Below, piece by piece: positions 3,440 to 21,651 of a stretch of 64,000 bases of DNA. Origin of the DNA: Planctomycetia bacterium (GTDB lineage: Bacteria; Planctomycetota; Planctomycetia; Pirellulales; PNKZ01); assembly GCA_021413845.1 (NCBI GenBank), contig JAIOPP010000026.1, positions 124,001 to 188,000 of the forward strand. The letters are read 5' to 3'. The position numbers and the translations under genes are program-made. Numbering within the stretch: position 1 is the first letter of the stretch; each line of letters begins with the position of its first letter. Below the pieces are notes generated by a model that was not told where the DNA came from, ran no database searches, and was given only the letters and a program-made list of their open reading frames with translations.

Positions 3440-3642
3440 ACCCCAACTATAAGGGCAACGGCTCGAAACCCGGCGAGCGGCGGCCGGGCGGTACGACTTC
3501 CCGGCGTTGGGAACTTGACGACCACGGTAAGGCCGAGAAGTTGCTCGGCTGCGGCCTGAATCGCTGCCGCTCGACTAGTGATTTCCCCAAAACGAAAATG
3601 GCCCCGCGGGTGCAACCGCGGGGCCGAGGGGGTGAAAGATGA
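3436..3642 (+). CDS. Possible small protein overlapping the AlpA-like gene
   Basis: A 68-codon frame whose ATG overlaps the TGA stop of the AlpA-like gene (ATGA), suggesting coupled translation. It is rich in glycine, arginine and lysine, has no recognised domain, and its end overlaps the start of the primase by four bases. Its last 14 codons run through a perfect GC-rich hairpin at 3600-3625, so it may instead be a spacer that happens to be open. Confidence 0.3.
   Translation: MNPNYKGNGSKPGERRPGGTTSRRWELDDHGKAEKLLGCGLNRCRSTSDFPKTKMAPRVQPRGRGGER
3600..3625. other. GC-rich perfect hairpin before the primase
   Basis: A 10-bp perfect stem (GGCCCCGCGG / CCGCGGGGCC) with a 6-base loop, ending 13 bases before the primase ATG. 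The flanking T-rich run is on the minus-strand side (ATTTTCGTTTT), so it could stop minus-strand transcription, or act as an RNA element modulating primase translation on the plus strand. Confidence 0.5.
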
Positions 3643-4880: not shown

Positions 4881-4956
4881 AAACGGCCGAGCCACCGGTG
4901 AGAGTTCGGCGAATGTATTTGACGTGGCTTGCCGAATATGAGACAGTTGGCGCACT

Positions 4957-5157
4957 ATGGCAAAGCGAAAGAACAAAACGATGACCGAGGTGTTGCGGCA
5001 AGCGATCGTCGATAGCGGTCTGCCGCTGTTGACGCTCGGCAAGGCATCGGGCGTCGACCGTGCGAGCTTACGGCGTTTCGTCAACGGCGAGCGGTCGCTG
5101 CGGCTCGACATGGCGGACAAGCTGGCGACTTACTTCAATGTGAAGATAATACGATGA
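4957..5157 (+). CDS. Small XRE-like helix-turn-helix protein
   Basis: 66 residues forming one compact DNA-binding domain: VLRQAIVDSGLPLLTLGKASGVDRASLRRFVNGERSLRLDMADKLATYF is a classic lambda-repressor-like four-helix pattern. Such short proteins often sit just before integrases in planctomycete islands and probably repress or time element genes. Its stop overlaps the ATG of the lipoprotein gene (ATGA), so the two are likely co-translated. Confidence 0.85.
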   Translation: MAKRKNKTMTEVLRQAIVDSGLPLLTLGKASGVDRASLRRFVNGERSLRLDMADKLATYFNVKIIR

Positions 5158-5804
5158 ATTTCACTAACTTTTCGCTAGCCATATCGGCAGTCCTGTTTGC
5201 GTCTGGTTGCAATGGCTCGAAGGAGAATAGCAAGCAAGTCGAGAAACACGCCGCAGCGATCGAAGTAAAGACCGAAGAGCAACTGTTTGAGGAAAACATC
5301 AAGAGAGAGCAGGAACTAGCAATAAAAGCATTCGGTGCCGATGGAAGGCCAATCGAATCCATTGCTTCAGAAGCGCAAATCGCGATCGACAATTTCGAGT
5401 CGTATGAAAGAACGATTTTCACCGTCGACGTGCAGCGCTACTTTCGACATCCGAGAAAGGTTTGCATTCGCGCACGTTTACGCGACGTGGTCGAGAATGA
5501 CACAGGCTTCTCCGTTCGATTCGGAGCCGTACTCGTTGACGCCGCTCAATTGCATTTCGATTTTGAACTCAAAGCGAGCGAGGCTCAAGTTGCTGAATTA
5601 CTGAAAGATCGGCCTGGCATGGGTGACGAATATGTGGTCGTCCTCGAAAGCTCTAAAGTTCTTCGCCGTGAGATCGAAATCTCGACGCATATTACACCGG
5701 CTGTAGATGACACCGCAGCGAGCGCCGAAGTAATGGTAGTTGATATTCCGGTAGACAAGATTCTTAAAGGTTCACTGATCTACTTCAAGTTAGTGCGTTA
5801 TTGA
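5154..5804 (+). CDS. Putative lipoprotein of element A
   Basis: 216 residues starting with a lipoprotein signal: a short hydrophobic stretch (SLAISAVLFASGC) with the likely lipidated cysteine at residue 19. The remainder is hydrophilic, with a lysine/glutamate-rich first part and a beta-rich second part (YFRHPRKVCIRARLRDVVEN). I recognise no family. It overlaps the HTH gene by four bases and lies 30 bases before the integrase. Cell-envelope cargo such as exclusion or surface function is possible, but nothing in the sequence shows it. Confidence 0.7.
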   Translation: MNFTNFSLAISAVLFASGCNGSKENSKQVEKHAAAIEVKTEEQLFEENIKREQELAIKAFGADGRPIESIASEAQIAIDNFESYERTIFTVDVQRYFRHPRKVCIRARLRDVVENDTGFSVRFGAVLVDAAQLHFDFELKASEAQVAELLKDRPGMGDEYVVVLESSKVLRREIEISTHITPAVDDTAASAEVMVVDIPVDKILKGSLIYFKLVRY

Positions 5805-5834
5805 AGCTCAGGTTTAGTACGCTGGAGTAATTTT

Positions 5835-7712: not shown

Positions 7713-7732
7713 AAACGTGGACGTCCACGTTT
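7713..7732. repeat. Perfect 20-bp palindrome at left edge of element B
   Basis: AAACGTGGACGTCCACGTTT is a perfect palindrome. A copy differing at two positions lies at 21502-21521, across the start of integrase B. It is a candidate recombination or integrase-binding site marking the island ends. Confidence 0.6.
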
Positions 7733-7821
7733 ACTTCCGCGCTCACACCCAACGAACGCAAGTGCCCATAGCATAAGCAGATGATGAGTAGCAAACGGGC
7801 AGCGGGTAGAGGTCGGCATCG

Positions 7822-8238
7822 TCAAGGTGCTACGGTGTCATCACGATCACGATTCATCGTCTCCAATGCCTGCTGTCGAAGGATTACGGCAGCCTCTTTG
7901 CCGATCGTCCAATCGATCGAACGTAACCCTCGGGAGACGGCACGCGATCCCATGGTCCTGATGAGGTGCAAGTGGGCTTCGACCCAGTGAATCTTCAGCT
8001 TCTCTTTCGCGATCTCCAAGTCCTCCAAGAGCACGAGGTCGAGGTTTCGGCAATCGAAGATCATCCATGCCACGAGCGTCGCTAGGTGCGATATGGTGGC
8101 GGAACGGTCTAAGCCGATCTCCTTACATGCCGTGACGTCGTGCGGGCCGTAGCACGTGCCTAGCGTGGTGTACTGCCCTTCGGCAATCGCCAGCGATACT
8201 TCCTTGGTCAAATCATCGAACGCTTCGTCTACCTGCAT
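7822..8238 (-). CDS. Hypothetical protein, last gene of the structural block
   Basis: 138 residues if started at the ATG at 8238, which has an AAGGGG ribosome site 8 bases upstream; an upstream ATG at 8262 would overlap the tape-measure stop. The protein is helical and acidic at the start, with leucine-rich helices (LVLLEDLEIAKEKLKIHWVEAHLHLIRTM). I recognise no family. It directly follows the tape measure and is probably co-transcribed. Tail-assembly chaperone genes normally precede a tape measure, so a morphogenesis role is only a guess. Confidence 0.65.
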   Translation of the reverse strand: MQVDEAFDDLTKEVSLAIAEGQYTTLGTCYGPHDVTACKEIGLDRSATISHLATLVAWMIFDCRNLDLVLLEDLEIAKEKLKIHWVEAHLHLIRTMGSRAVSRGLRSIDWTIGKEAAVILRQQALETMNRDRDDTVAP

Positions 8239-8248
8239 TTCTAACCCC

Positions 8249-11200
8249 TTATTTATTGTCAAGCGAACGCTTCGCCCCGACGTTGATTCCGCGACGGATC
8301 ATTTCATGTTCGATACGGTCGGCCTGTTCGCGAACGTCTCCGGCACCATAGATATTGAACGTCACGGCCTGCTTCTTATCACCCACCGCAATGAGTGACG
8401 CCAAGTCGTAACCTGCCTCACGACGAGCTTGTTTGGCCCGTTCTTCCTTTTCCAACTCACGTGCTTTGTACGACTCGGTATGCACCTTCTCGGCTTGGAC
8501 CCTCTCCTCGGCTTCCTGGCGAAGGACTTCCATCTTGTGCTGCTGCAATCCGTTCATTTCCTTCTGCAGGTCATTCAAGGCTTGTATCCCGCCCCCGAAG
8601 CTGGCCGCGTTAATGCGGGCCTGCTCCATGCGAGCCGCGACGTTGTCGATCGCCAGTCCTAACTTGGCTACCGGGTCGGTCGTCTGTTGCATGACGGCCT
8701 CTAGAGTCGCCATGCCCGCTCCGATACCCGACATGGCGTTGCTAAAGTGGCTGCTGATCTGCTGAGCCATACCGAAGATCGAGTCCATCATTCCACCGCC
8801 GCCACCACCCATCAACGCATCGTCGGCCTGACGTGCCGCGATAATGTTCTGCCGCTTCTCTTTGGCACTTATCGCTCGCTGCCCGGCCGTCTGCTTTCCG
8901 ATGTCGCCTTCCTTTTTCGCATCGGCGATCAACTGTTCGACGGTCTTTTTACTGCCATCACGAATCGCCTGATACGTTTTCGCCCAAGCGTCGGTGATGA
9001 CCTTCAGTTGCTCGATGTTCGCGGCGCGAGCGTCGCCCGTCGAATTCTTAATCCGGACCATTGTGGCCTGGTACTCATCGGATAACGACTTGAGCCCGCG
9101 TTTCTGCTCCGGGGAAATGCCGGCGACACCGAGAGCGTTTTGAAACTGTTGGCCGGACGATGCAATCTTCTTTTGCAGCTCGTTCCTGGTCATCTTTTGC
9201 AGGCTAGCGAAGTCGTCGGTCGGCTTGGCCTCGCCGAACGCTTTCGGCTTCACCGCTTTCGCGAACACTTCGGCACCTTTGGACGCGGCGGCCGTCACTC
9301 GATCGAAGTAGAGCTTTTGCATCTCGGCCGAGGCCGTGAGGCTGGCCGTTGCGTTGGTCATGATCGAGTTTCGGATCTTCATGAACGCTTCGTCCGAGTA
9401 GTCGGGCATCTTCGACAGCACATGCCGATAGTTGACGAGCATTGTTTCGATGTTCGCGACGTCGACCGCTTCCCCTTCCTTCGGCGTCATCGCCTTGCGG
9501 ATGTCGTCGGCCATCTCCTTGAACATCCCGAGCGATTCGCCATGCGTGGCGCTGCCGAGTGCGGCCTTCGTCGTGCCGTCCATGCCCGTAAGGTTCAGCG
9601 GCGTTGCCCGCCCCTTCGCTCGCTCGGCTTCACGCTCGGCGAATTCCTTCGCCTTCTTTTCGGACTGCTCCATCCGCTCATCGTGTGCATCGAACATCTT
9701 GGCCGATGCCTTCACGGCCGAATCGGCTGACGCCAGATGGAATGCCCGTTGCTCACCTTCGCTCTTGGCGGCTTTGTGCAAACTCTCCCTTACGCGGGCT
9801 TCGGTCGCATCCCACATCTTCGCGTTGTAACCGGGCATCAATTCGAGCGATGCTTTGTATTTTCGCAGGATGTCGTCGATGGCCGTCTTGCTCTTGTCGT
9901 CTACCCTCATGTACGAGAAGTCGAACTTGAGGTCCGGGGCGAGCGTCTTCAACTCGTCCTGCATCCCGCTGATGAAGCTGCGGGCTTGATCGGATCCAAC
10001 GGAAGCGAGATCGCTTTTCCCCGCGGCCGTGCCGGCGAACGCTACGGCCGCATCGGCTGCCTTGGTCCGGTCGATCGGTACGACGGTCGGAGCGGCGGCC
10101 GTCGACGATCCATCCGAGGTAGCCGTTACCAATGCCGTGCCGGTCGACGTAACCACGGGTTGACCTGGCTTTGCAGCCGATGGCTTGGACTTCGTAGCCG
10201 GTGCCGGGCCGATCTCTTGTTCAAAGAGCATCGCTTCCGACTTGGCATGTAGTGCTTTCGCTTCGTCGCGAAGCTGCTTGGCTTTTTGCATGTCGCCGCT
10301 TCGAGCGGCCCATTGAGCATCGGCCTCCATAGCCTTCGCTTCCAACCGCATCTGAATACCGTTGGCCCGCTTCACATCCCCCTCGAACATTGCGAAGCCG
10401 AGAGCGAAGCCGTCGAACATCTTGCCGAAGATGCTGGCAGTAGCGTCGATCATGCCGCCGCTCGTGTCGGCAAGGTCGCGAAGGGAAGGGGCGAGTTCTT
10501 CGCCGATCCGCTCCTTCATGTCGCCCATTTTCTTGTTCACACGATCGAGCGAGCCACCGAGCGAATCGTTAAGTTCTTTTGCCGTTCCGGCGTACCGCGA
10601 TTTGAGTTCATCGAGGATAACCTGCTGCGCCTTCATCGTGTCGCCCGACGCCATCAACCGCTTCACGAGAGCCGTTTGCTCGTCGGTGAATGCGACACCT
10701 TGGCGACGGAGTAATGCCATGCCGCGTTCCGGGTCGGTCAACGCCTTGCCGAGCATCGTGACGGCCGGCTCCAACGACATGCCGAGTGCCGAAGCCATAT
10801 CGACCGCGGCTACCATCGTATCGCGGAAGACGTCCCCTTTGATCTCTTTCATGCTGGCGAGCAACGCCATCGTGCTCAATGCCGCATCGTCCTCGAATTT
10901 CGACGTCTCGTGAATCTGCGTAGCGAGTGCCTTCATCTGTTCAAGCGTGAAGTCGGCCGCGTTGCCCGTCGCGCGGATGGCGGCCGACGCTCGGATCTCC
11001 GACGCTTCGGCTTCCGCGAAAGCATGGATGCCGTCGATGGCGAAGTTCATCGCCTGGTCTGCGATGCGAGACTTGATCCGGTCCATCGCCGAGCCGAGAG
11101 CGGCAGTCATCTCGCCGAACTTGCCGGTGAGCCGGCCGAACGACGAACCGCTATCGGCGGCGAGCCCGTCGAAGTTTTCGCCCATGTCCTTGCGCAGCGC

Positions 11201-11287
11201 CGCGATAGCCGCTTCCGCTTCATGCGAGCCCTTTTTAAGCCCGTCTACGTTTAAGCCGAGTTCGCCGGCGAGTGCAAAAATATCCAT
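8249..11287 (-). CDS. Phage tail tape-measure protein
   Basis: 1012 residues, largely alpha-helical. The N-terminal third has the conserved tape-measure signature: a segment of paired alanine-rich helices, then AVTMLGKALTDPERGMALLRRQGVAFTDEQ and LNDSLGGSLDRVNKKMGD. The central part has repeated helical units with acidic/lysine heptads. A glycine run (GGGGGMM) precedes a hydrophobic segment around residues 825-865, and the C-terminus is a coiled coil rich in Glu/Arg. The family sets tail length in long-tailed phages and forms part of the ejection machinery. Its ATG shares a base with the TAA of the upstream gene (TAATG). No tail tube, chaperone or baseplate gene was found with it. Confidence 0.85.
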   Translation of the reverse strand: MDIFALAGELGLNVDGLKKGSHEAEAAIAALRKDMGENFDGLAADSGSSFGRLTGKFGEMTAALGSAMDRIKSRIADQAMNFAIDGIHAFAEAEASEIRASAAIRATGNAADFTLEQMKALATQIHETSKFEDDAALSTMALLASMKEIKGDVFRDTMVAAVDMASALGMSLEPAVTMLGKALTDPERGMALLRRQGVAFTDEQTALVKRLMASGDTMKAQQVILDELKSRYAGTAKELNDSLGGSLDRVNKKMGDMKERIGEELAPSLRDLADTSGGMIDATASIFGKMFDGFALGFAMFEGDVKRANGIQMRLEAKAMEADAQWAARSGDMQKAKQLRDEAKALHAKSEAMLFEQEIGPAPATKSKPSAAKPGQPVVTSTGTALVTATSDGSSTAAAPTVVPIDRTKAADAAVAFAGTAAGKSDLASVGSDQARSFISGMQDELKTLAPDLKFDFSYMRVDDKSKTAIDDILRKYKASLELMPGYNAKMWDATEARVRESLHKAAKSEGEQRAFHLASADSAVKASAKMFDAHDERMEQSEKKAKEFAEREAERAKGRATPLNLTGMDGTTKAALGSATHGESLGMFKEMADDIRKAMTPKEGEAVDVANIETMLVNYRHVLSKMPDYSDEAFMKIRNSIMTNATASLTASAEMQKLYFDRVTAAASKGAEVFAKAVKPKAFGEAKPTDDFASLQKMTRNELQKKIASSGQQFQNALGVAGISPEQKRGLKSLSDEYQATMVRIKNSTGDARAANIEQLKVITDAWAKTYQAIRDGSKKTVEQLIADAKKEGDIGKQTAGQRAISAKEKRQNIIAARQADDALMGGGGGGMMDSIFGMAQQISSHFSNAMSGIGAGMATLEAVMQQTTDPVAKLGLAIDNVAARMEQARINAASFGGGIQALNDLQKEMNGLQQHKMEVLRQEAEERVQAEKVHTESYKARELEKEERAKQARREAGYDLASLIAVGDKKQAVTFNIYGAGDVREQADRIEHEMIRRGINVGAKRSLDNK

Positions 11288-11865
11288 TATTCGTCAATCT
11301 TCCCTGTGCGGAGTAGGTTTACTAATCGCGTGCGAAGTCGGTTCAAGATTCGATCACTTACCAGCGGCCACGAGCCGCGAAACGGCGGAGCGAATTCTTC
11401 GGTGCTGGAATTGTTGGCCTTCGCGAGTTGCTTTTCGAGCGTGGCCCGACGCTTGCTGCCGCTGCGAGTGCGGCCGAATTTATCTTGGAGATCCTGGATG
11501 CCCATGTCCTTCGCGGCCCAATGGATGATGGGCGACATCCCTTCCTTCCAGATGCTCACGGCCTTAATCAGCCCGCGTGCGTTTTCCCCGCCTAGCTCAA
11601 GGTACTTGAGATAATCGAGGTTGCTGCCGACCGCTCCGGAGATACGGCCGCTCTCGTCTTGCGCGGCTGCCCGAATCTGGATCGACGCACGAGCAAGCCC
11701 GTTGTCGATCGGCATGTGCCTTTGGATCTCTCGACCCCATATCGCGAGCCCGGCATTTAGTTCCGCGATCACAACCTTCGGGCCGGCAAGTCGGATCGCT
11801 GCAAGGTAGCCGATCGCCTTCGCATACGACTCCTCATTGATCTTGAACGTCGTACCGTCGGCCAT
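11287..11865 (-). CDS. HK97 gp10-like head-tail connector/neck protein
   Basis: 192 residues. The segment AGPKVVIAELNAGLAIWGREIQRHMPIDNGLARASIQIRA and the following YLKYLELGG strand match the HK97 gp10-like family, which forms part of the neck between head and tail. The start is placed at the ATG at 11865, which shares a base with the stop of the protease gene (TAATG); an upstream in-frame ATG at 11952 would overlap that gene by 88 bases. The C-terminal half (KFGRTRSGSKRRATLEKQLAKANNSSTEE) is basic and longer than usual for the family. Confidence 0.72.
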   Translation of the reverse strand: MADGTTFKINEESYAKAIGYLAAIRLAGPKVVIAELNAGLAIWGREIQRHMPIDNGLARASIQIRAAAQDESGRISGAVGSNLDYLKYLELGGENARGLIKAVSIWKEGMSPIIHWAAKDMGIQDLQDKFGRTRSGSKRRATLEKQLAKANNSSTEEFAPPFRGSWPLVSDRILNRLRTRLVNLLRTGKIDE

Positions 11866-12449
11866 TACAAAACCAGTGCATCGGGATTCGATCCGACTGC
11901 TACCGCCGACAACTCGGCAAGATCCCAATCGGTGAACCGAAGAATCTCGCACGTGCCCGACACCGGGTTGCCGTCTTGATTGACGCCCTCGGTAGCGACT
12001 TCATCGATCGAGAATGCCCGGCCGATGAAGCCGATCGAAAACGCTTTCAAAATCCCGGCGTCGAACATCCGATGAATGTTCGCCGAGAACGGATCGCCCA
12101 AGTCGAAGCGAGCTACGACGTCGATGAAGTCAGATTGAAGCATCAACTCCGGAACGGTGCCGAGCGGCAGGTTGCCGCGGACGGCATCGAGCCCATGTTG
12201 CCAGAGCAAAACTGGATTGCGGACGAAGCTGGATGCATCGCAGCCGGCCGGATCGACGATCGTGTCGTGCCGATCGATGGCGAGAGTGTTGATTCGAGCG
12301 TGAACTTCCGCCGGCAGTGGCTCGTTCTTCTTTCGCACTGCCACCTCGCGACGAACCGCGACGATCGATGGCGAGGCATGCCGGAGCACGGTGCCTTCAC
12401 CGATGGCACGCTTCGCACGTTCAATGAGTTCTCTCGTCGATCGTTGCAT
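11865..12449 (-). CDS. HK97-family prohead protease
   Basis: 194 residues with the Peptidase_U35 pattern: a strand-rich core INTLAIDRHDTIVDPAGCDASSFVRNPVLLWQHGLD containing the conserved histidine of HG, then MFDAGILKAFSIGF with the likely catalytic serine, and the terminal LAELSAVAVGSNPDA motif that defines the family. It would cleave the N-terminal delta region of the capsid protein during maturation. Its ATG overlaps the terminase stop (TAATG). It lies after the terminase and far from the capsid gene, whereas in most HK97-type phages protease and capsid are adjacent. Confidence 0.88.
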   Translation of the reverse strand: MQRSTRELIERAKRAIGEGTVLRHASPSIVAVRREVAVRKKNEPLPAEVHARINTLAIDRHDTIVDPAGCDASSFVRNPVLLWQHGLDAVRGNLPLGTVPELMLQSDFIDVVARFDLGDPFSANIHRMFDAGILKAFSIGFIGRAFSIDEVATEGVNQDGNPVSGTCEILRFTDWDLAELSAVAVGSNPDALVL

Positions 12450-13999
12450 TAGAACCTTCCATTAAGTTGAATTGCGTTGGGGCTTGGTTCGCCGCTGAAC
12501 CAGGGGTGTAATCGTTTCGGCTGGTCAGGCCGCGGCTTCGCACGTTCTGCGGCAACCATCGCTTCGATGCGGCCGTAGACGTCGGGCAATGGGCCTTCGG
12601 CGAACATGATGCCGGGCCGGCCGAGAGCATCGGTCGATCGGGAACCGTGGAGCATGAGAGCGAGAGCGATGGCACGATCGGCGTGGCCGGCAGCCCCACG
12701 CTCGGCGTCAATGCGATAGCCGTAGGACTTCTCTACGACCTTCAGCGATCGGAGATCGTCGAGCAACGCGGCATCGTTGTACAACTCGATCTGCCCTTCG
12801 GAGAACGTCTCGACGGTAGCCGATGCCATCTTCTGCAAGTTGGGACCGGAGAACGGCACCTCATGCACGGAGATTCCCCGGCTGCGCAACCGTTGGGCAA
12901 GCAACTCGGCCTGCCACGGATCGTAGAAGAGATCGAAGCCGTACTCTTTATGGAGTCGAACGATCTCTTCTTCGAGCTTCATCAAGTCGAGAGTCTTACC
13001 CGGTTCCGCCTTCCATGAATCCGTATGTGCGAGCCTCACACGGCCGCCGTTCGCTTCACAACCGCCGATGGCGATCGCCGATGCGTCACGTTTGATTCCG
13101 AGATCGAGGCCGGCGATGAACGTCGCACCGACGAACGATTCGCGAGTTGGCTTTTCGTGCATCGTGATCGCACGGAGAATGTCGGCTTCGGTGATCGCAT
13201 CGCCTTGGCCGGTCGTCCACTTGTTCAACCAGAGGCGATCGAACGCAACGGGCGGCAGAATGCGACGTTGTTCGGCGAGATGTTTCGGACTAATCCACGA
13301 GGCTTGCGGGCCGTCGATCGTAGAGAAGTGCCAGTCGGCATCGCTACCTTCCGAGCCGAGTCGAGCGGCTTCGCGGAAATTCCATTGCCACGATTTACCC
13401 TGACCGACGCCGGCGTTGGAAATCGTGACGAGCATGCACGTTCCCTTTTTCGCGGCAGCCGAGAAAAGAGAAACGAACAACGCCTCGTTGATCCAGTGCG
13501 TAATTTCATCGAGCACGATGAAGTCCGGAGTCAATCCGTAAGAGGATGCGGCATCTGCCGATAGAATCTCAAGCGTCGAACCGCTTCGCTTGTTTACGAC
13601 CTTGTAGGCTTGCACCTCAAGAAATTGAGACAGCCACGGATTGAGTGAGATAAGTTTTTCGATCGCATCGCGAAGCAAGCGAGCTTGATCCTTGTCGGCC
13701 GCCGCGGCGACTCCCGAAATCATGCGTTGCGTAGCGAACAATACCCATGAGACTTGCACGGCGAGATCGGCAGTCTTGCTATGACCACGCGGACGCTCAA
13801 AATAGGCGCGGAGTTTTACCGGACCCGTGATCGTCTTGTTCCGTGCGACCGCTTTCCATCCATTGTCGACGGACGCGAAGTCGGCGGCCTGCCAAGGATC
13901 GAGTTTCGATCCGAGCAACTCCGGGCCTGTGTCGGTCTCAATGAAGAGAGCTTCACGAAAAGCCCGCGGCGAGGAAAACATTTCCGGTAACTTAACCAT
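12449..13999 (-). CDS. Phage terminase large subunit
   Basis: 516 residues with both motor and nuclease parts. The Walker A variant is RPRGHSKT (about residues 69-76), Walker B is FIVLDEITHW with D164/E165, and SNAG follows as the coupling motif. The RNase-H-like nuclease domain starts at GLDLGIKRD (about residue 296) and ends with GHADRAIALALML (about 450-465). It packages DNA into preformed heads. All residues are accounted for by TerL, so no portal domain is fused to it. The start overlaps the upstream gene's end by 8 bases. Confidence 0.92.
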   Translation of the reverse strand: MVKLPEMFSSPRAFREALFIETDTGPELLGSKLDPWQAADFASVDNGWKAVARNKTITGPVKLRAYFERPRGHSKTADLAVQVSWVLFATQRMISGVAAAADKDQARLLRDAIEKLISLNPWLSQFLEVQAYKVVNKRSGSTLEILSADAASSYGLTPDFIVLDEITHWINEALFVSLFSAAAKKGTCMLVTISNAGVGQGKSWQWNFREAARLGSEGSDADWHFSTIDGPQASWISPKHLAEQRRILPPVAFDRLWLNKWTTGQGDAITEADILRAITMHEKPTRESFVGATFIAGLDLGIKRDASAIAIGGCEANGGRVRLAHTDSWKAEPGKTLDLMKLEEEIVRLHKEYGFDLFYDPWQAELLAQRLRSRGISVHEVPFSGPNLQKMASATVETFSEGQIELYNDAALLDDLRSLKVVEKSYGYRIDAERGAAGHADRAIALALMLHGSRSTDALGRPGIMFAEGPLPDVYGRIEAMVAAERAKPRPDQPKRLHPWFSGEPSPNAIQLNGRF

Positions 14000-14375
14000 T
14001 CGCCTTCGCCTTCTCCTTGTCGTACACGAGGCCGTCTAACGTCTTGCCGTCATCCTCGATACGGAGATCGGCGATCGGCTTATCGCGGGCCGTAATGCTG
14101 GATCGCATGTCGCGCATGATCGTCAGCTTTTGGTCGGTGGTCAGGTCCGCTTGCGTCGTGAGGAAATGCAACAACAGGCGGTAGATCGTTTCGTGCCTGT
14201 GGGCCGATTGGATCAATGCTTGTTCTCGTGGGCCGATAGAATTGCGGAGATTGAGCACCGCCGTTTCGAGAAGGTTGCGGAGCTTGCGTCCTTCGCGTGC
14301 GATGTGCTCGCATCCCGCGGGCAGTAGTCCGCTCGTAAGGTCTCGTCTTGCTCCGTGCTTGACTCGTGCCGCCAT
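13992..14375 (-). CDS. Small protein before TerL, candidate small terminase subunit
   Basis: 127 residues, basic at the N-terminus and helical throughout (LLETAVLNLRNSIGPREQALIQSAHRHETIYRLLLHFLTTQADLT). There is no detectable family match by eye. Its position just before the large terminase, with an 8-base overlap, is where a small terminase or DNA-recognition subunit usually sits. A clear helix-turn-helix is not visible, so the role is an inference from position. Confidence 0.6.
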   Translation of the reverse strand: MAARVKHGARRDLTSGLLPAGCEHIAREGRKLRNLLETAVLNLRNSIGPREQALIQSAHRHETIYRLLLHFLTTQADLTTDQKLTIMRDMRSSITARDKPIADLRIEDDGKTLDGLVYDKEKAKANG

Positions 14376-14399
14376 GCTTGCCTCTGATAAACCGAGCCC

Positions 14400-14435
14400 G
14401 CCGGCCGTGCGGAAATCCCTTAGCGCACGACCGGC
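14400..14435. other. Intercistronic hairpin between capsid and terminase genes
   Basis: Twelve-base arms (14400-14411 and 14424-14435) pair with one mismatch around a 12-base loop in the short gap after the capsid stop. There is no T run on the minus strand. It may weaken read-through or protect the capsid mRNA end, raising capsid output relative to packaging genes. Confidence 0.5.
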
Positions 14436-14453
14436 GAACGTCGGATTCGGTTC

Positions 14454-15839
14454 TTAGCTGATGCCCGTGAGCAGCCTCGATCGCACAAACGCGACCGACG
14501 TAGGCGGTGCCTGGTATCGCGAGCCCTGTCGCTCGCTGATGCGAATCCAGGTCTGCCCTTTTTCCCAGCTGTCGCCGGCCTGATCGGTTGTCGAGAGCAA
14601 CAGAATTCCGCGGTCCCACACGCAGAAATTTTTCATTGCGCCAATTCCGACATAGTTATTCGGCAAGGAGTTATTGACGATGACTGGCCGACCGAGAATG
14701 TAAGGTCTCATCGCAGTCGTGGCGTCTTGGACGAAAATCGGGCGACCGCTCAAGTCGACGAGTCCGGAGCACGCGCCGAGCACGACCTGATTCATCTGCC
14801 ATACGCAACTTGGATCCGTAGACCAGCGAATGTCTACTCGGAACAGGAGCTTGTTCAAGTTTGCGTACGAGATCGACGTGACACCGGCGACATCCGTGAT
14901 GCCGCTCGAATGGTAGATGCCGGTCGGTTCGTTCGTGCCGGTGCCGATTGCAGTAGCACGCTCACGCTCGGTACGCATCGCTTCCGTAATGAGCTTCTGA
15001 ACGATTTCGATAACCGAAGGGTCGGAATCCTCGATGACGTTGTTCGTCATCTTCGTCATCGCCGAACGACGGTACATCGTGTACGTCCCCTCGCCGAACG
15101 TGGGCTGCGATTCATCGAACGCCGCGGTCTCCGCTCCGTACGTGACCACCGGCACGGCAGAAATCGTTGGGTGCGTCCCATCGTTATTCAGGGTCGGAAT
15201 CTTCGTCGCGAGGTCGTACAGCGAAGTAAGCGGCAACGGATCGGTGATCAACAATTTCAGATAGCCGGCCGGGATTGCGAATCCCCCCGCGTTTCCGGTG
15301 CCGGCCGAGAGCAGCCGTTTATTCCATTCGTGTTTCGCGTAGGCGTGCGGCTGTCGGCAGTCGGTAATGACGGCCCGGCAGAAGTCGGCGAGCAGAGTGC
15401 GCTCTTCGTTTTTCGACGGCTCGCCGAAGATGATCGAAGCGGCACGCTTGTTCCGTTCGTCGGGATTTTCCTGCGACGCTTCGTGGAACTGCCCGAGATA
15501 CCGACGGTCGATCCAATCGCCCGGAGGAAGGCCGCGAGATTCCCGCCGCGGTTCCGGCAGAACGTACCCGTCGATGACTTCTCGGACTTCTCGGGTCGTG
15601 TTGCGCTGGCGACTGAGATCGCCGTGCATGGCACGCTCCACGAAATCATCTCCCTCGTCTCCCTCTTCGTCGCGAGCCGGATTGTTCGGCACGTTGGGCG
15701 TTCGTCTTGCAGGCGACGTCGCTCGGGTTAAGGCTGGCTTGATCGGATCTCGTGCCGGCCCGCTGTCGGTAATGACGCGGCGTCCGGCTTGCATATCGCG
15801 AGTCGAGTAGCCCGGACCCCAGTTGTATTTGTTGGACAT
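14454..15839 (-). CDS. HK97-fold major capsid protein
   Basis: 461 residues from the ATG at 15839, chosen because AGGAAG lies 8 bases upstream; the longer frame to 15965 lacks a ribosome site. Residues 1 to about 170 are charged and proline/arginine-rich, like the cleaved delta (scaffold) region of HK97-type capsids. The rest follows the phage_capsid family: FAIPAGYLKLLI, a P-domain helix MTNNVIEDSDPSVIEIVQKLITEAM, GTGTNEPTGI (the usual RAxIxGxGxxQPxG equivalent), YILGRPVIVNNSLP, and AFVRSRL at the end. It forms the icosahedral shell. First gene of the minus-strand structural block, about 200 bases after the AlpA-like gene. Confidence 0.9.
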   Translation of the reverse strand: MSNKYNWGPGYSTRDMQAGRRVITDSGPARDPIKPALTRATSPARRTPNVPNNPARDEEGDEGDDFVERAMHGDLSRQRNTTREVREVIDGYVLPEPRRESRGLPPGDWIDRRYLGQFHEASQENPDERNKRAASIIFGEPSKNEERTLLADFCRAVITDCRQPHAYAKHEWNKRLLSAGTGNAGGFAIPAGYLKLLITDPLPLTSLYDLATKIPTLNNDGTHPTISAVPVVTYGAETAAFDESQPTFGEGTYTMYRRSAMTKMTNNVIEDSDPSVIEIVQKLITEAMRTERERATAIGTGTNEPTGIYHSSGITDVAGVTSISYANLNKLLFRVDIRWSTDPSCVWQMNQVVLGACSGLVDLSGRPIFVQDATTAMRPYILGRPVIVNNSLPNNYVGIGAMKNFCVWDRGILLLSTTDQAGDSWEKGQTWIRISERQGSRYQAPPTSVAFVRSRLLTGIS

Positions 15840-16035
15840 TCGTTCTTCCTGAACTTGTTTTTTTGTGGCTAACACTTCCCGGCGTCGCCACATTCCTCCC
15901 GGCAGGAACTTCTCCGAGGCGATTCGCATCCCGCGACAGCCGACGTCCCGAGGGACCGCATACATCGCGTTCGTCGCATCGCCCCGGAGACGTCGCCGGG
16001 TCTATCGCTTCGTGCCGAAGCACGTTGCATCCTTC

Positions 16036-16338
16036 TTAACAGCCGGCCGCCGCCAGCTTTCCATCAGCGAGCTTTGCGGCCCGCTCCAATTGCAGATCCG
16101 TTCGCACAATCGTCGCAGGTGCGGACGGCTCGTCTCGCAGGCCGCTTGTCAGGGCCATCCAGTTATTCAAGTCGTTTTCGAGAATTGCGTTGCGACCACC
16201 GATCATGAAGAAACGCAGCTTGTGACCCTTCACGCCGACTCGCCGCCAACTGTAGACCGTCTCGACGCGCACCCCGGCCAACTCGGCAACCTCTTGGACC
16301 GTGTATCGCTTTTGCGCCAATCGTTCCGTAGGACTCAT
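16036..16338 (-). CDS. AlpA/MerR-like DNA-binding protein of element B
   Basis: 100 residues from the ATG at 16338, which has an AGGTG ribosome site; the longer open frame runs into the quasi-palindrome and is not used. The domain KRYTVQEVAELAGVRVETVYSWRRVG is a winged-helix/HTH_17 motif of excisionase-type regulators, followed by a tail of alanine and leucine helices. It diverges from the SF3 helicase gene across a symmetrical 253-bp region and probably binds there, acting as a regulator of replication and/or of integrase activity, as AlpA does in phage satellites. Confidence 0.8.
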   Translation of the reverse strand: MSPTERLAQKRYTVQEVAELAGVRVETVYSWRRVGVKGHKLRFFMIGGRNAILENDLNNWMALTSGLRDEPSAPATIVRTDLQLERAAKLADGKLAAAGC

Positions 16339-16414
16339 CTCGTCACCTCTGAAAAAAGTTACAACGCTCGTCATCTCCCGGCTGACCGGTGAAATTGATT
16401 CACATTGGTCTGCT

Positions 16415-16667
16415 TGAAATCTATGCGTTACCTTGCGGTTGCGAGGTCCAAGGTCAAACTTTCTGGCCGCTGATGCTTCGCAAGATTCGGGGCATGGTGG
16501 GTGTGGCGGGTCGAGAACTGTTTTTAGGAAACTATTCATCATGCATGCGTAAGGGAACTTTTGGAAAAACGCCCCCTGACCCACCATACCCACCATGCAG
16601 TTCGTCGCTCGCTCGGAATTCAGTCGCAGGCAGGAACTCGCAAACGCAAAGTTCCGCATAGATTTCA
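16415..16667. repeat. 253-bp quasi-palindrome with iteron-like arms; candidate replication origin
   Basis: Outer 35-base arms at 16415-16449 and 16633-16667 are inverted copies with about six mismatches. Inner 20-base arms at 16493-16512 (CATGGTGGGTGTGGCGGGTC) and 16578-16597 (inverted, two mismatches) are nested inside. A third related word starts at 16666 (CATGGCGGGTGTGGTGG). The centre is CATGCATG at 16540-16547 in an A/T-richer stretch. All this lies in the non-coding gap between a divergently read regulator and a replication helicase, the usual place for a satellite or plasmid origin. Confidence 0.6.
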
Positions 16668-16705
16668 TGGCGGGTGTGGTGGAGGTTCACAAAAGGAAGG
16701 CAGCC

Positions 16706-18115
16706 ATGAGTCAGAAAGCAAGGAAGCAAGGTCGGGTGTCGAGTATCGATATCGATCGCAAATTGACCGACACTGCTAACGGTCAGCGGTTTATCCGGCA
16801 GCACGCGGGAAACGTCCTGTTCGTACGGAAATGGAACAAGTGGATTGCCTGGTCCGGCCGGCTTTGGGACGTCAGCGGCGACGTGCAAGAACTCGCCAAG
16901 AAAACCGGGGATGCAATCTGGCGAGAGGTAGCGAAGGTAAGTTCCGAGGGGTACGACGTCAGGGACTTACTTCGACATGCCAAGTACGCGCATTCGGTGC
17001 GTGGAATGCGGGCGATGGCGAGTTCGGCGGCGAGCGATCCGAGCGTGCAAGTGGAATGCACGTCGCTCGATGCCGAGCCGATGCTGCTCTGTCTCCCGGA
17101 TGGCACGCTCGATCTCGCCATCGGAGAACTAAGGGACCATCGGCGAGATGACTACATCACGCAAATGATTCGGACTGAATACGATTCAGCGGCCGAATGC
17201 CCGCGGTGGATTAAGTTCGTCAATGAGGTGATGGACGGCAAGGAAGACATGGTCGCCTATCTGCAAAAAGCAGTCGGCTATAGCCTTACCGGCGAGACGA
17301 AAGAGGAAGCGTTGTTCGTCCTCTACGGCGACGGCGCGAACGGTAAGTCAACCTTCGTCGAAACGATCTCGGCGCTGATGGGGTCTTACGCCGGCGTCGC
17401 CTCGCACGACTTGCTCTTGTCGAAGGGAGTCTCGCACCCGACCGAGATTGCGTCGATGTTCGGCAAGCGTATCGTCACCTGCTCCGAGACGGAGTACGGC
17501 CGCTCGTGGTCCGAGGCGATGGTGAAAAAACTTTCTAGTCGTGAACCGATCGCCGCTCGGCGGATGTACGAAGACGAATGGAGTTTCACGCCGACGCAAA
17601 AAATCTGGCTGTCCACGAACCATCGCCCGAAAGTTCGCGGGGTCGACAACGGAATTTGGCGGAGACTCAAGATGATTCCGTTCACGGTGACGTTCCCGCC
17701 CGAGCGCAGAAATAAAAATCTTTCCGCCGAGTTGCGAGCAGAGCTTCCCGGCATCTTGGCGTGGGCGGTCCGCGGTTGCATGAACTGGCAACGCGACGGG
17801 CTGCTCGACCCTCCCGACGTGGAGCGGGCAACAACCGACTACCGAATCGCCGAAGACGTAGTTCGTCGCTTCGTCGGCGAGGAGTGCATCCAAGGCGATG
17901 ACCAAATTCGTACGCCTGCGATCACGATGTATGAGAAGTTCTCGGCATGGTGCAAAGCCAGCGGCGAGGAGGCGATGACGAGCACGATGTTCGGCATCCG
18001 CATGAAAGAACTCTGTGAGACGGGCACGGCCGGCTTCCGAAGGAAGGCGATGACCACAGGTATGTTCTACCTTGGCATCGCACCGCGAGCGGCATCGCAT
18101 GGCATAGCTGCCTAA
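16706..18115 (+). CDS. Phage/plasmid SF3 helicase (P4/D5-type) replication protein
   Basis: 469 residues from the ATG at 16706, preceded by AAGGAAGG; a longer frame to 16595 lies in the quasi-palindrome. The N-terminus carries a D5_N-like region (FVRKWNKWIAWSGRLWDVSGD). The SF3 helicase core follows: Walker A GDGANGKST (about residue 210), then ETEYGRSWSEAMVKKLSSREPIAARRMYEDEWSFTPTQKIWLSTNHRP with the motif-C asparagine, and the arginine-finger region GIWRRLKMIPF. A C-terminal winged helix is suggested by YEKFSAWCKASGEE. It would unwind the element origin. It lacks a prim-pol or Toprim domain, so priming comes from elsewhere. Confidence 0.9.
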   Translation: MSQKARKQGRVSSIDIDRKLTDTANGQRFIRQHAGNVLFVRKWNKWIAWSGRLWDVSGDVQELAKKTGDAIWREVAKVSSEGYDVRDLLRHAKYAHSVRGMRAMASSAASDPSVQVECTSLDAEPMLLCLPDGTLDLAIGELRDHRRDDYITQMIRTEYDSAAECPRWIKFVNEVMDGKEDMVAYLQKAVGYSLTGETKEEALFVLYGDGANGKSTFVETISALMGSYAGVASHDLLLSKGVSHPTEIASMFGKRIVTCSETEYGRSWSEAMVKKLSSREPIAARRMYEDEWSFTPTQKIWLSTNHRPKVRGVDNGIWRRLKMIPFTVTFPPERRNKNLSAELRAELPGILAWAVRGCMNWQRDGLLDPPDVERATTDYRIAEDVVRRFVGEECIQGDDQIRTPAITMYEKFSAWCKASGEEAMTSTMFGIRMKELCETGTAGFRRKAMTTGMFYLGIAPRAASHGIAA

Positions 18116-18135
18116 ACCACGCAGTTATGGTTTTC

Positions 18136-18157
18136 AGCGTGTCCGCGCGAACACGCT
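18136..18157. repeat. Palindrome sharing a GTGTCCGCGCG core (copy 1)
   Basis: A 22-base palindrome with one mismatched pair, AGCGTGT...ACACGCT, in the gap between helicase and parB-like gene. Its core TGTCCGCGCG recurs at 18237-18256. It could be a ParB-like binding site or the loop-forming part of a transcription stop between the converging genes. Confidence 0.45.
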
Positions 18158-18188
18158 ATTCTGGGTGGGTCGCATACGAATCACGCTG

Positions 18189-18713
18189 CTAACTCTTGCC
18201 TAGCTTCTTACCCAGCTTGCCGGGCTTGCTGGCGTCCGGTGTCCGCGCGGACACCGTTGGTTTTTTGCGTCTGGGCGTTTTACTCTGCATGGTGCCTTTC
18301 GGCCTAAGCAGTTCCGGCTTTACAGAACGCAACCCGGTTTCGAGCGGCTTGTTTTCTTCTCGGGCTTTGCGGCACAGCAGGAGCATACCGTTGAGCAAAG
18401 TCATGGCTCGCTCCAACTCAGCGGCATCCGGTTGCCGCGACGCTACGTTTATCGTCGTAACGTGAGCGAGCATTTCCTCGACCGACCCAACGAACTCGGT
18501 GAATGGATAATCGATGTCGAGTTGAGCGGCGATCGCGGCCCTGTGCTGGCCGTCGACGATCACGAGTTTTCCTCTTTCTTCCGGATTTTTCCAGACGACA
18601 AGCGGGGTCTTCACGCCGTTCTTCCGGATGTCGTCTGTCAACTCGGCGACTCTCTCTACCGAGTGCATCCGCCATAAGCCGCAGACATCGTGTACGTCGT
18701 GGCGAATCATCAT
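18189..18713 (-). CDS. ParB/Srx-like nuclease-domain protein
   Basis: 174 residues from the ATG at 18713 (GGAG 5 bases upstream). It holds a ParB N-terminal-like domain: MHSVERVAELTDDIRKNGVKTPLVVWKNPEERGKLVIVDGQHRAAIAAQL, with the diagnostic DGQHR motif. The C-terminal 60 residues are lysine/proline-rich and probably disordered (PRRKKPTVSARTP). ParB-domain proteins in phages act as DNA-binding, nuclease or CTPase regulators. No ParA partner is present, so classic partition is unlikely. It converges with the SF3 helicase gene. Confidence 0.78.
   Translation of the reverse strand: MMIRHDVHDVCGLWRMHSVERVAELTDDIRKNGVKTPLVVWKNPEERGKLVIVDGQHRAAIAAQLDIDYPFTEFVGSVEEMLAHVTTINVASRQPDAAELERAMTLLNGMLLLCRKAREENKPLETGLRSVKPELLRPKGTMQSKTPRRKKPTVSARTPDASKPGKLGKKLGKS
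18237..18266 (+). terminator. Perfect palindrome (copy 2) followed by T run; possible helicase terminator
   Basis: CGGTGTCCGCGCGGACACCG is a perfect 20-base palindrome followed, on the plus strand, by TTGG and six T. It lies inside the end of the ParB-like coding region and could terminate the helicase transcript. Because it shares its core with the 18136 copy it may also be a protein-binding site. Confidence 0.5.
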
Positions 18714-18769
18714 TCGATCTCCGTGGAAGGGTCGCCTAGTTATATCGTGGCGAGTAAGCAAATAGAAAC

Positions 18770-18804
18770 GAAAATGCCCGGCGAATTGCTAGCTCGCCGG
18801 GCAT
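18770..18804 (-). terminator. Rho-independent terminator
   Basis: On the minus strand, an 11-bp perfect stem (18774-18784 with 18794-18804) is followed by TTTTCGTTTC. It ends the transcript of the small gene at 18813-19034, separating it from the ParB-like gene. Confidence 0.75.
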
Positions 18805-18812
18805 CGGGTTTA

Positions 18813-19034
18813 TCATCGCTGCAACTCTACACTCATCGCGTTTCTTGTTGCAAAGCAAGTCGCATTCACCTTCTCCACGAACTTCTCTTTGGCCCACTTA
18901 TTTTCGATAGTCTGTCTCGCCAAGTTTCGGATTTGGCCCTTCACGCCCGGGCGAATCTTATTCGTGCCCAGTTTGAAGCAGCCGTAAAAACTAGCGATTT
19001 CGACACCCTCATTCATGAGATCATTGATATTCAT
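18813..19034 (-). CDS. Small hypothetical protein of element B
   Basis: 73 residues from the ATG at 19034, which has AGGTGGTG close upstream. The sequence (MNINDLMNEGVEIASFYGCFKLG... then basic helices) has no recognised domain. It is followed by a strong terminator, supporting a real transcript. It may be an early regulatory protein of the island. Confidence 0.6.
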   Translation of the reverse strand: MNINDLMNEGVEIASFYGCFKLGTNKIRPGVKGQIRNLARQTIENKWAKEKFVEKVNATCFATRNAMSVELQR

Positions 19035-19120
19035 GCACCACCTCGATTTGATAGTCACAACACCCGACCTGCCAACCTACCAGACGATTCCACGTTGCGA
19101 GGTCTCGCCATCGGATTCGT

Positions 19121-19528
19121 CTATCCGCAGCTATCTAGCGACTTTCGGTATCGCGCTACCTCGGCATCCTCTAGATGGTCCCAATCGGGAGACGTTGCAC
19201 CGACAACCCGCTGCCGTCCAAGATCGACGAGCGGTATCTGCCGGAGGAGTTGCTTCGCAAACGGGATTTGTAGATCCAGTTGCACGACCACGGCACGTTT
19301 ACATTCCTTGCACACGCTCGGATGATTGAACGTCTCCGCGGTCTGGTACAACTCGGCGAGTTCCATCTCCGTGACGCCGGGGATGGCGACGTTGTCGACG
19401 AAAGTCTGACCGTCGATATGCTCGACGAGCAGCGCGAAGATCGTGACCTTCGCAGTTACCGTGCGTGGCGGGAGAGGCTTCGGCCGCTTCGTGGATATCT
19501 TCTTCGGCTTGGTGGTGGTGGTGCTCAT
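19121..19528 (-). CDS. Hypothetical protein of element B with possible CxxC metal site
   Basis: 135 residues from the ATG at 19528. The N-terminal 30 residues are Lys/Pro/Thr-rich (STTTTKPKKISTKRPKPLPP). The middle includes an HPSVCKECKRAVVVQLDL segment whose CxxC resembles half a zinc knuckle. It overlaps the gene at 19525-19779 by four bases (ATGA) and has an AAAGGCGG ribosome site inside that gene, so the pair is translationally coupled. Family unknown. Confidence 0.6.
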   Translation of the reverse strand: MSTTTTKPKKISTKRPKPLPPRTVTAKVTIFALLVEHIDGQTFVDNVAIPGVTEMELAELYQTAETFNHPSVCKECKRAVVVQLDLQIPFAKQLLRQIPLVDLGRQRVVGATSPDWDHLEDAEVARYRKSLDSCG

Positions 19529-19779
19529 ACGGTCACCGCCTTTCGGGACCGGGCACGTACGACCTGAACCGGCGGGGCCTTCGGGATTCGCAGTTCGACG
19601 ATCGCGTCTATGGCGATCCGGTTCGTCGCTGATGCGGCCCAGTCCATGCCGCATAGGCTCTCTTGATAGACATCGTAGATGCTGGCGTTTCCGTCGTCAT
19701 CGTACTCAATCGCGAAGCAGAGTTCTTGCCGCACGAAACTAGGTCGAATTGTCGTCTCTAAGTCTGGAACCGTATCCAT
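19525..19779 (-). CDS. Small hypothetical protein of element B
   Basis: 84 residues from the ATG at 19779, with GGAG 8 bases upstream; an upstream in-frame ATG at 19866 is less well supported. The sequence LCFAIEYDDDGNASIYDVYQESLCGMDWA is acidic and beta-like. First gene of the coupled pair behind integrase B. No family recognised. Confidence 0.6.
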   Translation of the reverse strand: MDTVPDLETTIRPSFVRQELCFAIEYDDDGNASIYDVYQESLCGMDWAASATNRIAIDAIVELRIPKAPPVQVVRARSRKAVTV

Positions 19780-20179
19780 TTTGCGTTCTCCGTAAACGAC
19801 CGCGAGCCCGGCAACTCTTTTTATCAGCGCCCATAGGAACGCCCCGAACGCCTTGATCCCCGCCAATGCGGATCAAATCTAGAACGCTCGGAAAAGCTGC
19901 CGGGCTCGCGGCCCGTAATGTTGGATTACGCATCGTCATGTCGCCTATGCTTGGTCGCTCGGTGGTGATAAAGCCACTGATGAACGACGCACGTATCATC
20001 ATCATCGATCAAATAAAAATCAAGACCGCTTCGCTTGGACCTCGCAACGGGTTCTCATCGATTAGTATCTTCCTAGTTGAATGCCGTGCGTTTTTTCCTC
20101 GATAGTTTGGCGCACGGCACCGCAACACCCGACCCATCGGCATGTTTCCCTCAAGTTTTCATGCCGATGGGTTTTTTCG
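19780..20179. other. 400-base non-coding stretch between small genes and integrase B
   Basis: No convincing gene on either strand; the frames present lack ribosome sites and family resemblance. The right third carries two consecutive hairpins (see 20083-20177). The promoter of the minus-strand pair beginning at 19779 is expected here. Confidence 0.5.
20083..20177 (+). terminator. Tandem hairpins with plus-strand T run beside integrase B stop
   Basis: Hairpin 1 pairs GCCGTGCG (20083-20090) with CGCACGGC (20111-20118). Hairpin 2 pairs CCCATCGGCATG (20133-20144) with CATGCCGATGGG (20160-20171) and is followed by six T on the plus strand. The T run is on the wrong strand to end the integrase mRNA, so it would stop plus-strand transcription entering the integrase gene from the left, or end a short plus-strand RNA. 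Confidence 0.55.
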
Positions 20180-21517
20180 TTAGCCGAGTTCACGCGCCAC
20201 ACGCTCGGCAGTCTTCCAGTCGCGAGCCGCGTACATCTGAGTGATGTCTGCTCTCGAATGACCGAGCACGTTCGACGCGGCTTCGAGCCCGAACTTCTCA
20301 CGGATCTCGGTAGCGGCCGAATGGCGAAGTCGATTCGGAGCCCATGTCCATCGCTCCCGCCAGAGGTTCGCTTCCTCGCGGCGAGTCTCTTCCGCCTTGA
20401 GCAACGCTTCAGGCATCGGTTGCTTCGCTCGCTTGTGGCGTTGATACGCGGCCGAGTATTCCTTCGACGCCGCACGTAGCTCGATGGGCATGCCGAACGC
20501 CTGCTCGCACGCTCGCGTGATCGCACGACGATAGGTGTCCTCGCTGTAGCAGAGACCCGGGGCACGCTTAGGCTTGCGTGTACGACGCCTCACAGCGGCA
20601 TCCGGATTCTTCATCTTGTCGGCATTCTGCTGAGCGACGACTTCCGCCGGCGAGAAGCAGTAGTCGGTAGCGGGGCGATCGAGATACGGAAGCAAGATCG
20701 CTTGTGCCTTCGGGCCGAACATGATGCGACGATCGTGGCCGTGATGCTCGGTCTTGTGATGCGAGGGGCGATAGGACCACACGTCGCCCTTACGATCGAC
20801 GTCGCACGGACGCATGATGCAGAGTTCCGTAGGCCGACAGCCGACGAGCCGTTGCAGCCGGACCATATCGGCCACGACCGGGGGCAGGTGCGGCAGCGTG
20901 GACTCGACCACGGCATCGTCGACCGGTACGACGGGCTTCGTTTCGCGAGCCTCGCCCTTGCCCTTCCTGGGACCGGAGACGCATTGGAGAGCTTGGAGCG
21001 TGGTCACGGCCACAAGCTGATTGGCTGCCGCCCACTTGAAGATGCGACGCACGTTGCGAATGAGGCTCTGAATGTACGAGCGGGATAGGTCGTCGGCCAC
21101 CATCCGTTGGATGATCGCTTGGAGAGCGAGCGGCCCGAAGTCCTCAGCCTGAGTGCTGCCGTAAGTCGTGCGGAGATAGCGTAGGGCGATCTTGATCCCG
21201 TCGATCCTGCCGCCGTAATAGGGTTCCGCGAAGGCGAGGTACTTGACGAGTAGTTCGCTGAGCAGCAGGGGCGGGAAGCCGCTGTTGGTGCGTGGCATCG
21301 ACCGGCCGTTCGCCATCCATTCGCCGACGATCCGATCGTACGCGAGGCGGCTGGCCGACTTGGGGCTATTGCTCCACGGGCCGAGGGGTACCTGCCGTCC
21401 CTCTAGGCGGACGAACGCTTGGCCCGAGCGTCGATGACGCGAGTATTTCGGGGGCCTACTGACGAGCTTTGGCACTGGCTGAATCTCCGAGATAAGTTCC
21501 CAAGCGTGGATGTCCAC
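20180..21517 (-). CDS. Tyrosine recombinase/integrase of element B
   Basis: Up to 445 residues. A core-binding domain covers about residues 80-175 and the catalytic domain 200-440. Catalytic positions visible: R228 (GCRPTEL), R398 within PNRLRH, H420 (LGHS) and Y429 (QMYAARD). The usual histidine three before the second arginine is asparagine (N395), as in other planctomycete relatives of this type. The first codons overlap the 20-bp palindrome at 21502-21521, so the true start may be further in, near SRPPKYSRHR at residue 20, where relatives begin. It lies 61 bases from the 3' end of tRNA-Val, the usual layout for integration at a tRNA 3' end. Confidence 0.9.
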   Translation of the reverse strand: MDIHAWELISEIQPVPKLVSRPPKYSRHRRSGQAFVRLEGRQVPLGPWSNSPKSASRLAYDRIVGEWMANGRSMPRTNSGFPPLLLSELLVKYLAFAEPYYGGRIDGIKIALRYLRTTYGSTQAEDFGPLALQAIIQRMVADDLSRSYIQSLIRNVRRIFKWAAANQLVAVTTLQALQCVSGPRKGKGEARETKPVVPVDDAVVESTLPHLPPVVADMVRLQRLVGCRPTELCIMRPCDVDRKGDVWSYRPSHHKTEHHGHDRRIMFGPKAQAILLPYLDRPATDYCFSPAEVVAQQNADKMKNPDAAVRRRTRKPKRAPGLCYSEDTYRRAITRACEQAFGMPIELRAASKEYSAAYQRHKRAKQPMPEALLKAEETRREEANLWRERWTWAPNRLRHSAATEIREKFGLEAASNVLGHSRADITQMYAARDWKTAERVARELG

Positions 21518-21521
21518 GTTT
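21502..21521. repeat. 20-bp imperfect palindrome at right edge of element B
   Basis: AAGCGTGGATGTCCACGTTT matches the perfect palindrome at 7713-7732 in 18 of 20 positions. It spans the first codons or leader of integrase B and lies 57 bases from tRNA-Val. Confidence 0.6.
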
Positions 21522-21577
21522 GGAGATTACCAGGGAAACTCGCCGTGCGAGGTCCTAAGTCGTTACTAGATAAGAAG

Positions 21578-21651
21578 TGGGCGATACAGGACTCGAACCT
21601 GTGACCCCTAGCTTGTCGAGCTAGTGCTCTAACCAACTGAGCTAATCGCCC
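21578..21651 (-). tRNA. tRNA-Val(GAC)
   Basis: A complete cloverleaf on the minus strand: acceptor GGGCGAT/ATCGCCC with discriminator A, D arm GCTC...GAGC, anticodon stem CTAGC/GCTAG with loop TCGACAA (anticodon GAC), T arm ACAGG-TTCGAGT-CCTGT. No CCA is encoded. Position 33 reads C rather than the near-universal T. Its 3' end faces integrase B, so it is the likely bacterial attachment locus of the island. Confidence 0.9.

Follow-up and report, generated by a model that had tools for sequence, protein, structure and literature searches.

A compact planctomycete island with its own capsid, protease and terminase genes and no recognisable portal, probably a satellite that assembles its head around a helper's portal

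Among the described satellites, capsid-forming PICIs (cf-PICIs) carry, by the definition given in the source, all capsid and packaging components, including the portal, the head-tail connectors and an HNH endonuclease (PMC10690885). The MulchRoom and MiniFlayer satellites encode their own capsid and packaging genes and obtain their tails from the helper (PMC10690885), and the capsid and packaging genes used by P4 come from its helper (PMC10690885, PMC4936722). The procapsids of SaPIbov5 contain the satellite protein Ccm together with the portal and also the capsid protein of the helper, and the authors assumed that cleavage is performed by the helper protease (PMC8569155). No paper treating phage satellites and planctomycetes together was found, in a search outside which most subscription papers lay.

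The element described here is a mobile island of 14 kb in a planctomycete contig, of which a stretch of 64,000 nucleotides, referred to as the window, was analysed. The content of the host assembly is planctomycete, including a PSCyt1/PSCyt2 gene. The island lies between an intact tRNA-Val(gac) gene and a tRNA-Pro(cgg) fragment (Table 1). Read from the right, and on the minus strand unless stated otherwise, it encodes an integrase, two proteins of 177 and 81 amino acids, a ParB-like protein and a helicase (plus strand), followed, again on the minus strand, by an AlpA-type regulator, the capsid protein, TerS, TerL, an S78 protease, an HK97-gp10-like protein, a tape measure protein and a protein of 138 amino acids. 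The integrase, AlpA-like regulator, helicase, ParB-like protein and structural run named in the original prediction are all present, with family matches and with every reading frame intact. Two of the three proteins that it had singled out for comparison with portal folds, those of 127 and 192 residues, correspond to TerS and the HK97-gp10-like protein, respectively, whereas the 138-residue protein still matches no family. The helicase likely starts near position 16709, and the likely capsid start at 15839 was placed by alignment with the capsid of a sibling element. Apart from the tRNA, no RNA family was detected in the island using Rfam. The ends had been proposed to lie at 7713 and 21521; a near-palindrome (CGTGGAYGTCCACG) is indeed found there, at 7716 and 21505, and a close variant adjoins the integrase gene of the sibling, but the outer limits of the island are the tRNA-Val gene and the tRNA-Pro fragment.

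Table 1. Features of the island (window coordinates) and location of three further islands that encode structural proteins and lack a recognised portal (contig coordinates)
Feature	Location	Strand	Evidence or remarks
tRNA-Pro(cgg) 3' half, distal attachment repeat	7527..7571	-	45-bp exact copy; intact tRNA-Pro at L014:6149-6224
Palindrome CGTGGACGTCCACG, distal end	7716..7729	.	
138-aa protein	7822..8238	-	no family match; no similarity to portal profile
Tape measure protein, 1012 aa	8249..11287	-	PF06791 5e-10, phrog_27166 1e-23
HK97-gp10-like neck/tail-completion protein, 192 aa	11287..11865	-	PF04883 4e-5
S78 prohead protease, 194 aa	11865..12449	-	phrog_80 3e-11, phrog_617
Large terminase TerL, 516 aa	12449..13999	-	PF03354 1e-7, phrog_9 8e-27
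Small terminase subunit TerS, 127 aa	13992..14375	-	related proteins immediately precede TerL in many islands
Hairpin, capsid-TerS spacer	14397..14439	-	fold z -3.25; spacer near-identical in both siblings
HK97-fold major capsid protein, N-terminal extension, 461 aa	14454..15839	-	PF05065 2e-30, phrog_10 7e-37
AlpA/excisionase-like regulator (HTH_17)	16036..16338	-	HTH_17 2e-08, phrog_66; sibling copy 53% identical
D5-type SF3 helicase/primase	16595..18115	+	PF08706 1e-26, phrog_6088 2e-121
ParB-like protein	18189..18761	-	PF02195 3e-4, phrog_1033 3e-9
177-aa protein	19121..19654	-	no Pfam match; no similarity to portal profile
Tyrosine integrase, 445 aa	20180..21517	-	PF00589 2.7e-07
Near-palindrome CGTGGATGTCCACG, candidate Int/Xis arm site	21505..21518	.	
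tRNA-Val(gac), intact, integrase-side attachment gene	21577..21651	-	ARAGORN, Rfam
G018 tRNA-Met island	C10 157790-168679		integrase, AlpA-like, helicase, TerS, capsid, ClpP-type protease; no TerL
G548 tRNA-Ala island	C1 225118-238951		primase, HNH, tape measure, S78 protease, capsid; no TerL
G021 tRNA-Cys island	C105 20422-34236		helicase, S78 protease, tape measure; capsid/TerL unrecognised

The structural and packaging genes lie in one operon and are closely coupled. The TerS and TerL genes overlap by 8 bases, and TAATG overlaps occur at three successive junctions (TerL-protease, protease-gp10 and gp10-tape measure), the first of them, one base in length, at the position where related phages place the portal gene. 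Both Walker motifs (A and B) and the three acidic nuclease positions of TerL are retained, as are the His and Ser motifs of the protease. The capsid gene is located upstream of the TerS gene, and the hairpin in the spacer between them is a candidate cos/pac site or terminator. The HK97-gp10-like protein is the single head-tail connector candidate in the island, where no adaptor was recognised. Likewise, no portal, major tail protein, baseplate or lysis genes, which a complete siphophage prophage would have, were recognised in the island, and no HNH endonuclease match was obtained among its proteins. Inspection of frames, TAATG junctions and catalytic motifs revealed neither broken frames nor deletion scars in the island.

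The absence of a recognisable portal, on which the original prediction hinged, was upheld by several searches. The profile PF04860 (Phage_portal) had zero matches in the 7.08-Mb host assembly, island and window included, and a profile built on the portals of seven related elements likewise found no portal in this assembly. A local portal model yielded only noise against all six-frame ORFs of the window. When the tape measure protein and the proteins of 138 and 177 aa were compared with the seven related portals profile against profile, no similarity emerged. A portal beyond the proposed limits of the island was sought as well and not found, with the reservation that the island ends are discordant and the far end of one sibling is unseen. 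It had further been suggested that the portal might be hidden in an uncharacterised gene. The 138-aa and 177-aa proteins have no assigned role, and the AlphaFold model of the former reaches a pLDDT of 48 (37 for the 192-aa protein; each was modelled alone, and both models are too poor to use), which would leave room for a very divergent or very small portal. However, the related portals comprise 385-516 aa (413-516 aa in the related islands), the unassigned island proteins 177 aa at most, and all island proteins above 250 aa (integrase, helicase, capsid, TerL and tape measure) are assigned. Since no unassigned protein is large enough and neither candidate resembles the portal profile, we regard a concealed portal as highly improbable.

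A complete phage resident in the same genome was considered as helper and rejected, since the assembly contains no PF04860 portal. The phages HK106 and HK446 mobilise a cf-PICI, and neither is native to its strain (PMC11389934); a resident helper is therefore not required, and the portal-free host assembly is no argument against borrowing.

The closest capsid and protease were found in three phage-like loci (L061-L063) with the gene order TerL-portal-protease-capsid and a capsid identity of 28-34%. These full phages lie elsewhere and not at the site of the island. The kinship of the capsid with portal-bearing phage-like loci, together with a tape measure gene lacking tail genes, as in a remnant, could indicate a decayed prophage that has lost its portal and tail genes. 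We consider this quite improbable, given the intact frames and their TAATG coupling, the satellite-type early genes, the diverged second copy described below and the occurrence of other portal-less islands. Moreover, because the TerL-protease, protease-gp10 and gp10-tape measure junctions are all TAATG, there is no deletion scar at the portal site of the related phages, and because the capsid gene precedes that of TerS, a single deletion from a phage would not give the rearranged order. The kept motifs likewise speak against simple decay.

The second copy is a sibling element on contig C90 (L014), which comprises an intact tRNA-Pro gene and genes for an integrase, an AAA_25 protein in place of the helicase, AlpA and the capsid protein. 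The integrase is 64% identical to that of the island (which in turn is 43% identical to its counterpart in the G018 tRNA-Met island), AlpA 53% and the capsid 54%. The contig stops inside the TerS gene, 117 bp past the capsid gene, and its last 19 bp are identical to the window. Between the siblings, dS and dN amount to 1.11 and 0.34 for the integrase gene and to 0.98 and 0.45 for the capsid gene, respectively, corresponding to dN/dS values of about 0.3-0.5 with substitutions biased to synonymous sites; a close homologue for this test exists only for the capsid, integrase and AlpA. Within the capsid, the N-terminus is 87% identical (dS 0.34) and the core 43% (dS 1.36). When the two capsid genes are aligned (14454-15839 and L014:11971-13338), there is little difference in the first 80 residues or in the 3' spacer, and more than half of the core differs, so that the core resembles a cassette swapped between fixed borders. 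As part of this pattern looks like exchange between the siblings, the N-terminal similarity alone is no proof of selection.

The two ends of the island carry different tRNAs, tRNA-Val on the right and tRNA-Pro on the left. The tRNA-Pro fragment also borders a third element (C), which has its own integrase at window positions 5835-7646. Element C spans about 10 kb (window 1-7571 and G000:C26 from 121482) and contains genes of HTH and lipoprotein-like type as well as an apparent restriction-modification gene at the far end; tRNA-Pro fragments border both sides, the outer one at C26 121482. The most parsimonious arrangement runs tRNA-Pro, sibling B, fragment, element C, fragment, chromosome; therefore, by attachment logic, the left end of the island belongs to sibling B and the right end to an element A at tRNA-Val. 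On contig C1 (57861-57907), 47 bp beside unrelated genes match the tRNA-Val 3' half exactly. This fragment (L132, G000:C1:57861 onwards) adjoins an IS3-like transposase and is perhaps the end of another island in a tRNA-Val array. Gene order around the tRNAs is not kept in three genomes of the same genus, and synteny did not decide the pairing of the flanks.

Because the end tRNAs are discordant, the contig must join parts of two siblings, one far end of which is not visible. Since, in addition, the sibling sits in tRNA-Pro on another contig, the window represents either a recombinant of the siblings or an assembly join of near-alike downstream modules. A portal could then have been missed in one sibling if, in a chimeric contig, A and B share downstream sequence and the far end of A is absent. 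Besides the discordant tRNAs, the end of C90 in a TerS sequence identical to the window over 19 bp is consistent with this view, as is the fact that the TerS, protease, gp10 and 138-aa genes were assembled once only, no second copy of any of them being found in the assembly; furthermore, the portal gene of island L046 comes after that for the tape measure. Nevertheless, we judge a missed portal to be unlikely. If the junction is a true recombinant, the island in the window is complete and has no portal. If it is an assembly join, B (C90 plus the left part of the window) is fully visible and portal-less, provided that A and B do not differ over the merged stretch, and the far end of A alone is unseen. 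On both readings there appears to be at least one complete element without portal, and other portal-less islands have matching repeats on single contigs.

Of 397 genomes belonging to the host's class, 62 contain the TerL family. Both capsid and portal are present in seven of the compact islands or contigs that were read (L041, L046, L099, L101, L154, L157 and L158), and many of the loci read encode TerL, mostly with TerS, without a recognised capsid or portal (e.g., L037, L040, L047, L048, L105 and L107). An IMG/VR record of 12.5 kb (L153) encodes a helicase, TerS, TerL, an S78 protease and an integrase, with capsid and portal unrecognised. Family f21 comprises single chromosomal TerL relatives with intact motifs and no recognised phage genes around them (L113-L118, from G383, G636, G247, G375, G120 and G565). 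A gene of roughly 240-450 aa lies beside the TerL relative in all six loci, that of L114 matching ABC/AAA ATPase models; the pair is possibly a domesticated two-gene unit.

Three further islands, each on a single contig and bounded by tRNA-derived direct repeats, encode structural proteins without a portal (G018, G548 and G021; Table 1). PF04860 had zero matches in the genomes G548 and G021, and its sole match in G018 belongs to another, phage-like locus (contig C5). No relative was recovered when IMG/VR and GTDB were scanned with the capsid. A capsid tree unites the portal-bearing islands with full support, and the window pair groups with phage-like loci, while the capsids of G018 and G548, which are unlike that of the window, are placed elsewhere on long, unsure branches; the portal-less islands do not form one group. 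Portal absence thus appears to have arisen more than once, although the long branches give no exact number and the supported branches alone are compatible with a single origin. The gap common to several islands suggests that such parasites take the portal from another virus.

Tape measure genes without a recognised tail tube recur in compact loci with and without capsid (L046, L157, L125, L126, L127 and the window). This could be explained if the satellite determined how long a borrowed tail becomes, although tail-tube proteins may go unrecognised. The same recurrence fits the view that the structural genes serve mainly to sabotage or remodel the helper and not to form a shell for the satellite: its capsid protein, protease and tape measure would enter helper assembly and shift the size of the head or the length of the tail. 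Ccm acts in this manner on heads in SaPIbov5, and the G021 island has only the protease and the tape measure, capsid and terminase being unrecognised. For the island in the window this seems rather unlikely, since a capsid with a long N-terminal extension, a protease, TerS and TerL together exceed what remodelling needs.

Taken together, these results suggest that the island is probably an integrated satellite whose self-encoded head is assembled on the portal of a helper. Of the options originally proposed, a portal borrowed from a helper most simply explains a compact, intact and portal-less island. SaPIbov5 offers a precedent, as its satellite capsid protein is found in particles together with the portal of the helper. 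Int and AlpA would mediate integration and excision at tRNA genes, and the helicase would replicate the island; TerS and TerL would select and pump its DNA into a shell made by the capsid protein and protease that the island itself encodes. At the packaging vertex, a helper phage would supply the portal ring, as would the tail tube, the baseplate and the lysis functions. The gp10-like protein and the tape measure may be the satellite's own share at the head-tail junction and tail, and perhaps set the length of the borrowed tail. Several points count against this model: simple portal borrowing does not call for a tape measure in the absence of a recognised tail tube, the helper is a postulated one and the host assembly has no portal, and the tRNA-Val/tRNA-Pro join hides part of one sibling. 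More tentatively, the island might represent a planctomycete type of satellite that borrows the portal and reprograms the virion on either side of it, with its own shell, protease and motor on one side and a tape measure for tail length on the other.

Neck and tail are docked to the head at the portal. Leaving it to the helper would therefore keep the satellite head compatible with the tail of any helper. The partial kits of planctomycete islands, i.e., terminase only, protease and tape measure, capsid and protease, or capsid and portal, form a natural series in which to distinguish the virion components that a parasite has to encode itself from those that it can obtain elsewhere, and to ask if a foreign portal can serve for the assembly of a satellite capsid.

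How, then, does the island compare with known systems? Of the original interpretation, the compact, satellite-like organisation, the intact frames and the missing portal are supported. Like cf-PICIs, the island is compact and has an integrase, an AlpA-type regulator, a replication gene, its own capsid, protease, TerS and TerL, and no tail tube. In contrast to them, the island lacks portal and HNH genes, carries a tape measure gene and has its genes in a rearranged order. A portal is among the defining features of the type, and since none was detected in the searches, the cf-PICI label is not supported and the element falls outside the definition given in PMC10690885. The MulchRoom and MiniFlayer satellites share satellite-encoded capsid and packaging genes with the island, but they encode a portal. 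The portal-bearing planctomycete islands are likewise compact and use the same TerS-TerL family, several having a helicase, HTH or integrase gene and two of them (L046 and L157) a tape measure; they differ in a capsid of another lineage and in the order TerS-TerL-capsid-x-portal. With P4-like elements the island shares integrase, AlpA and primase/helicase, but it has structural and terminase genes of its own. Finally, SaPIbov5 resembles the island in having an HK97-type capsid homologue and no portal of its own; beyond SaPIbov5, the island itself encodes a protease, TerL, a gp10-like protein and a tape measure.
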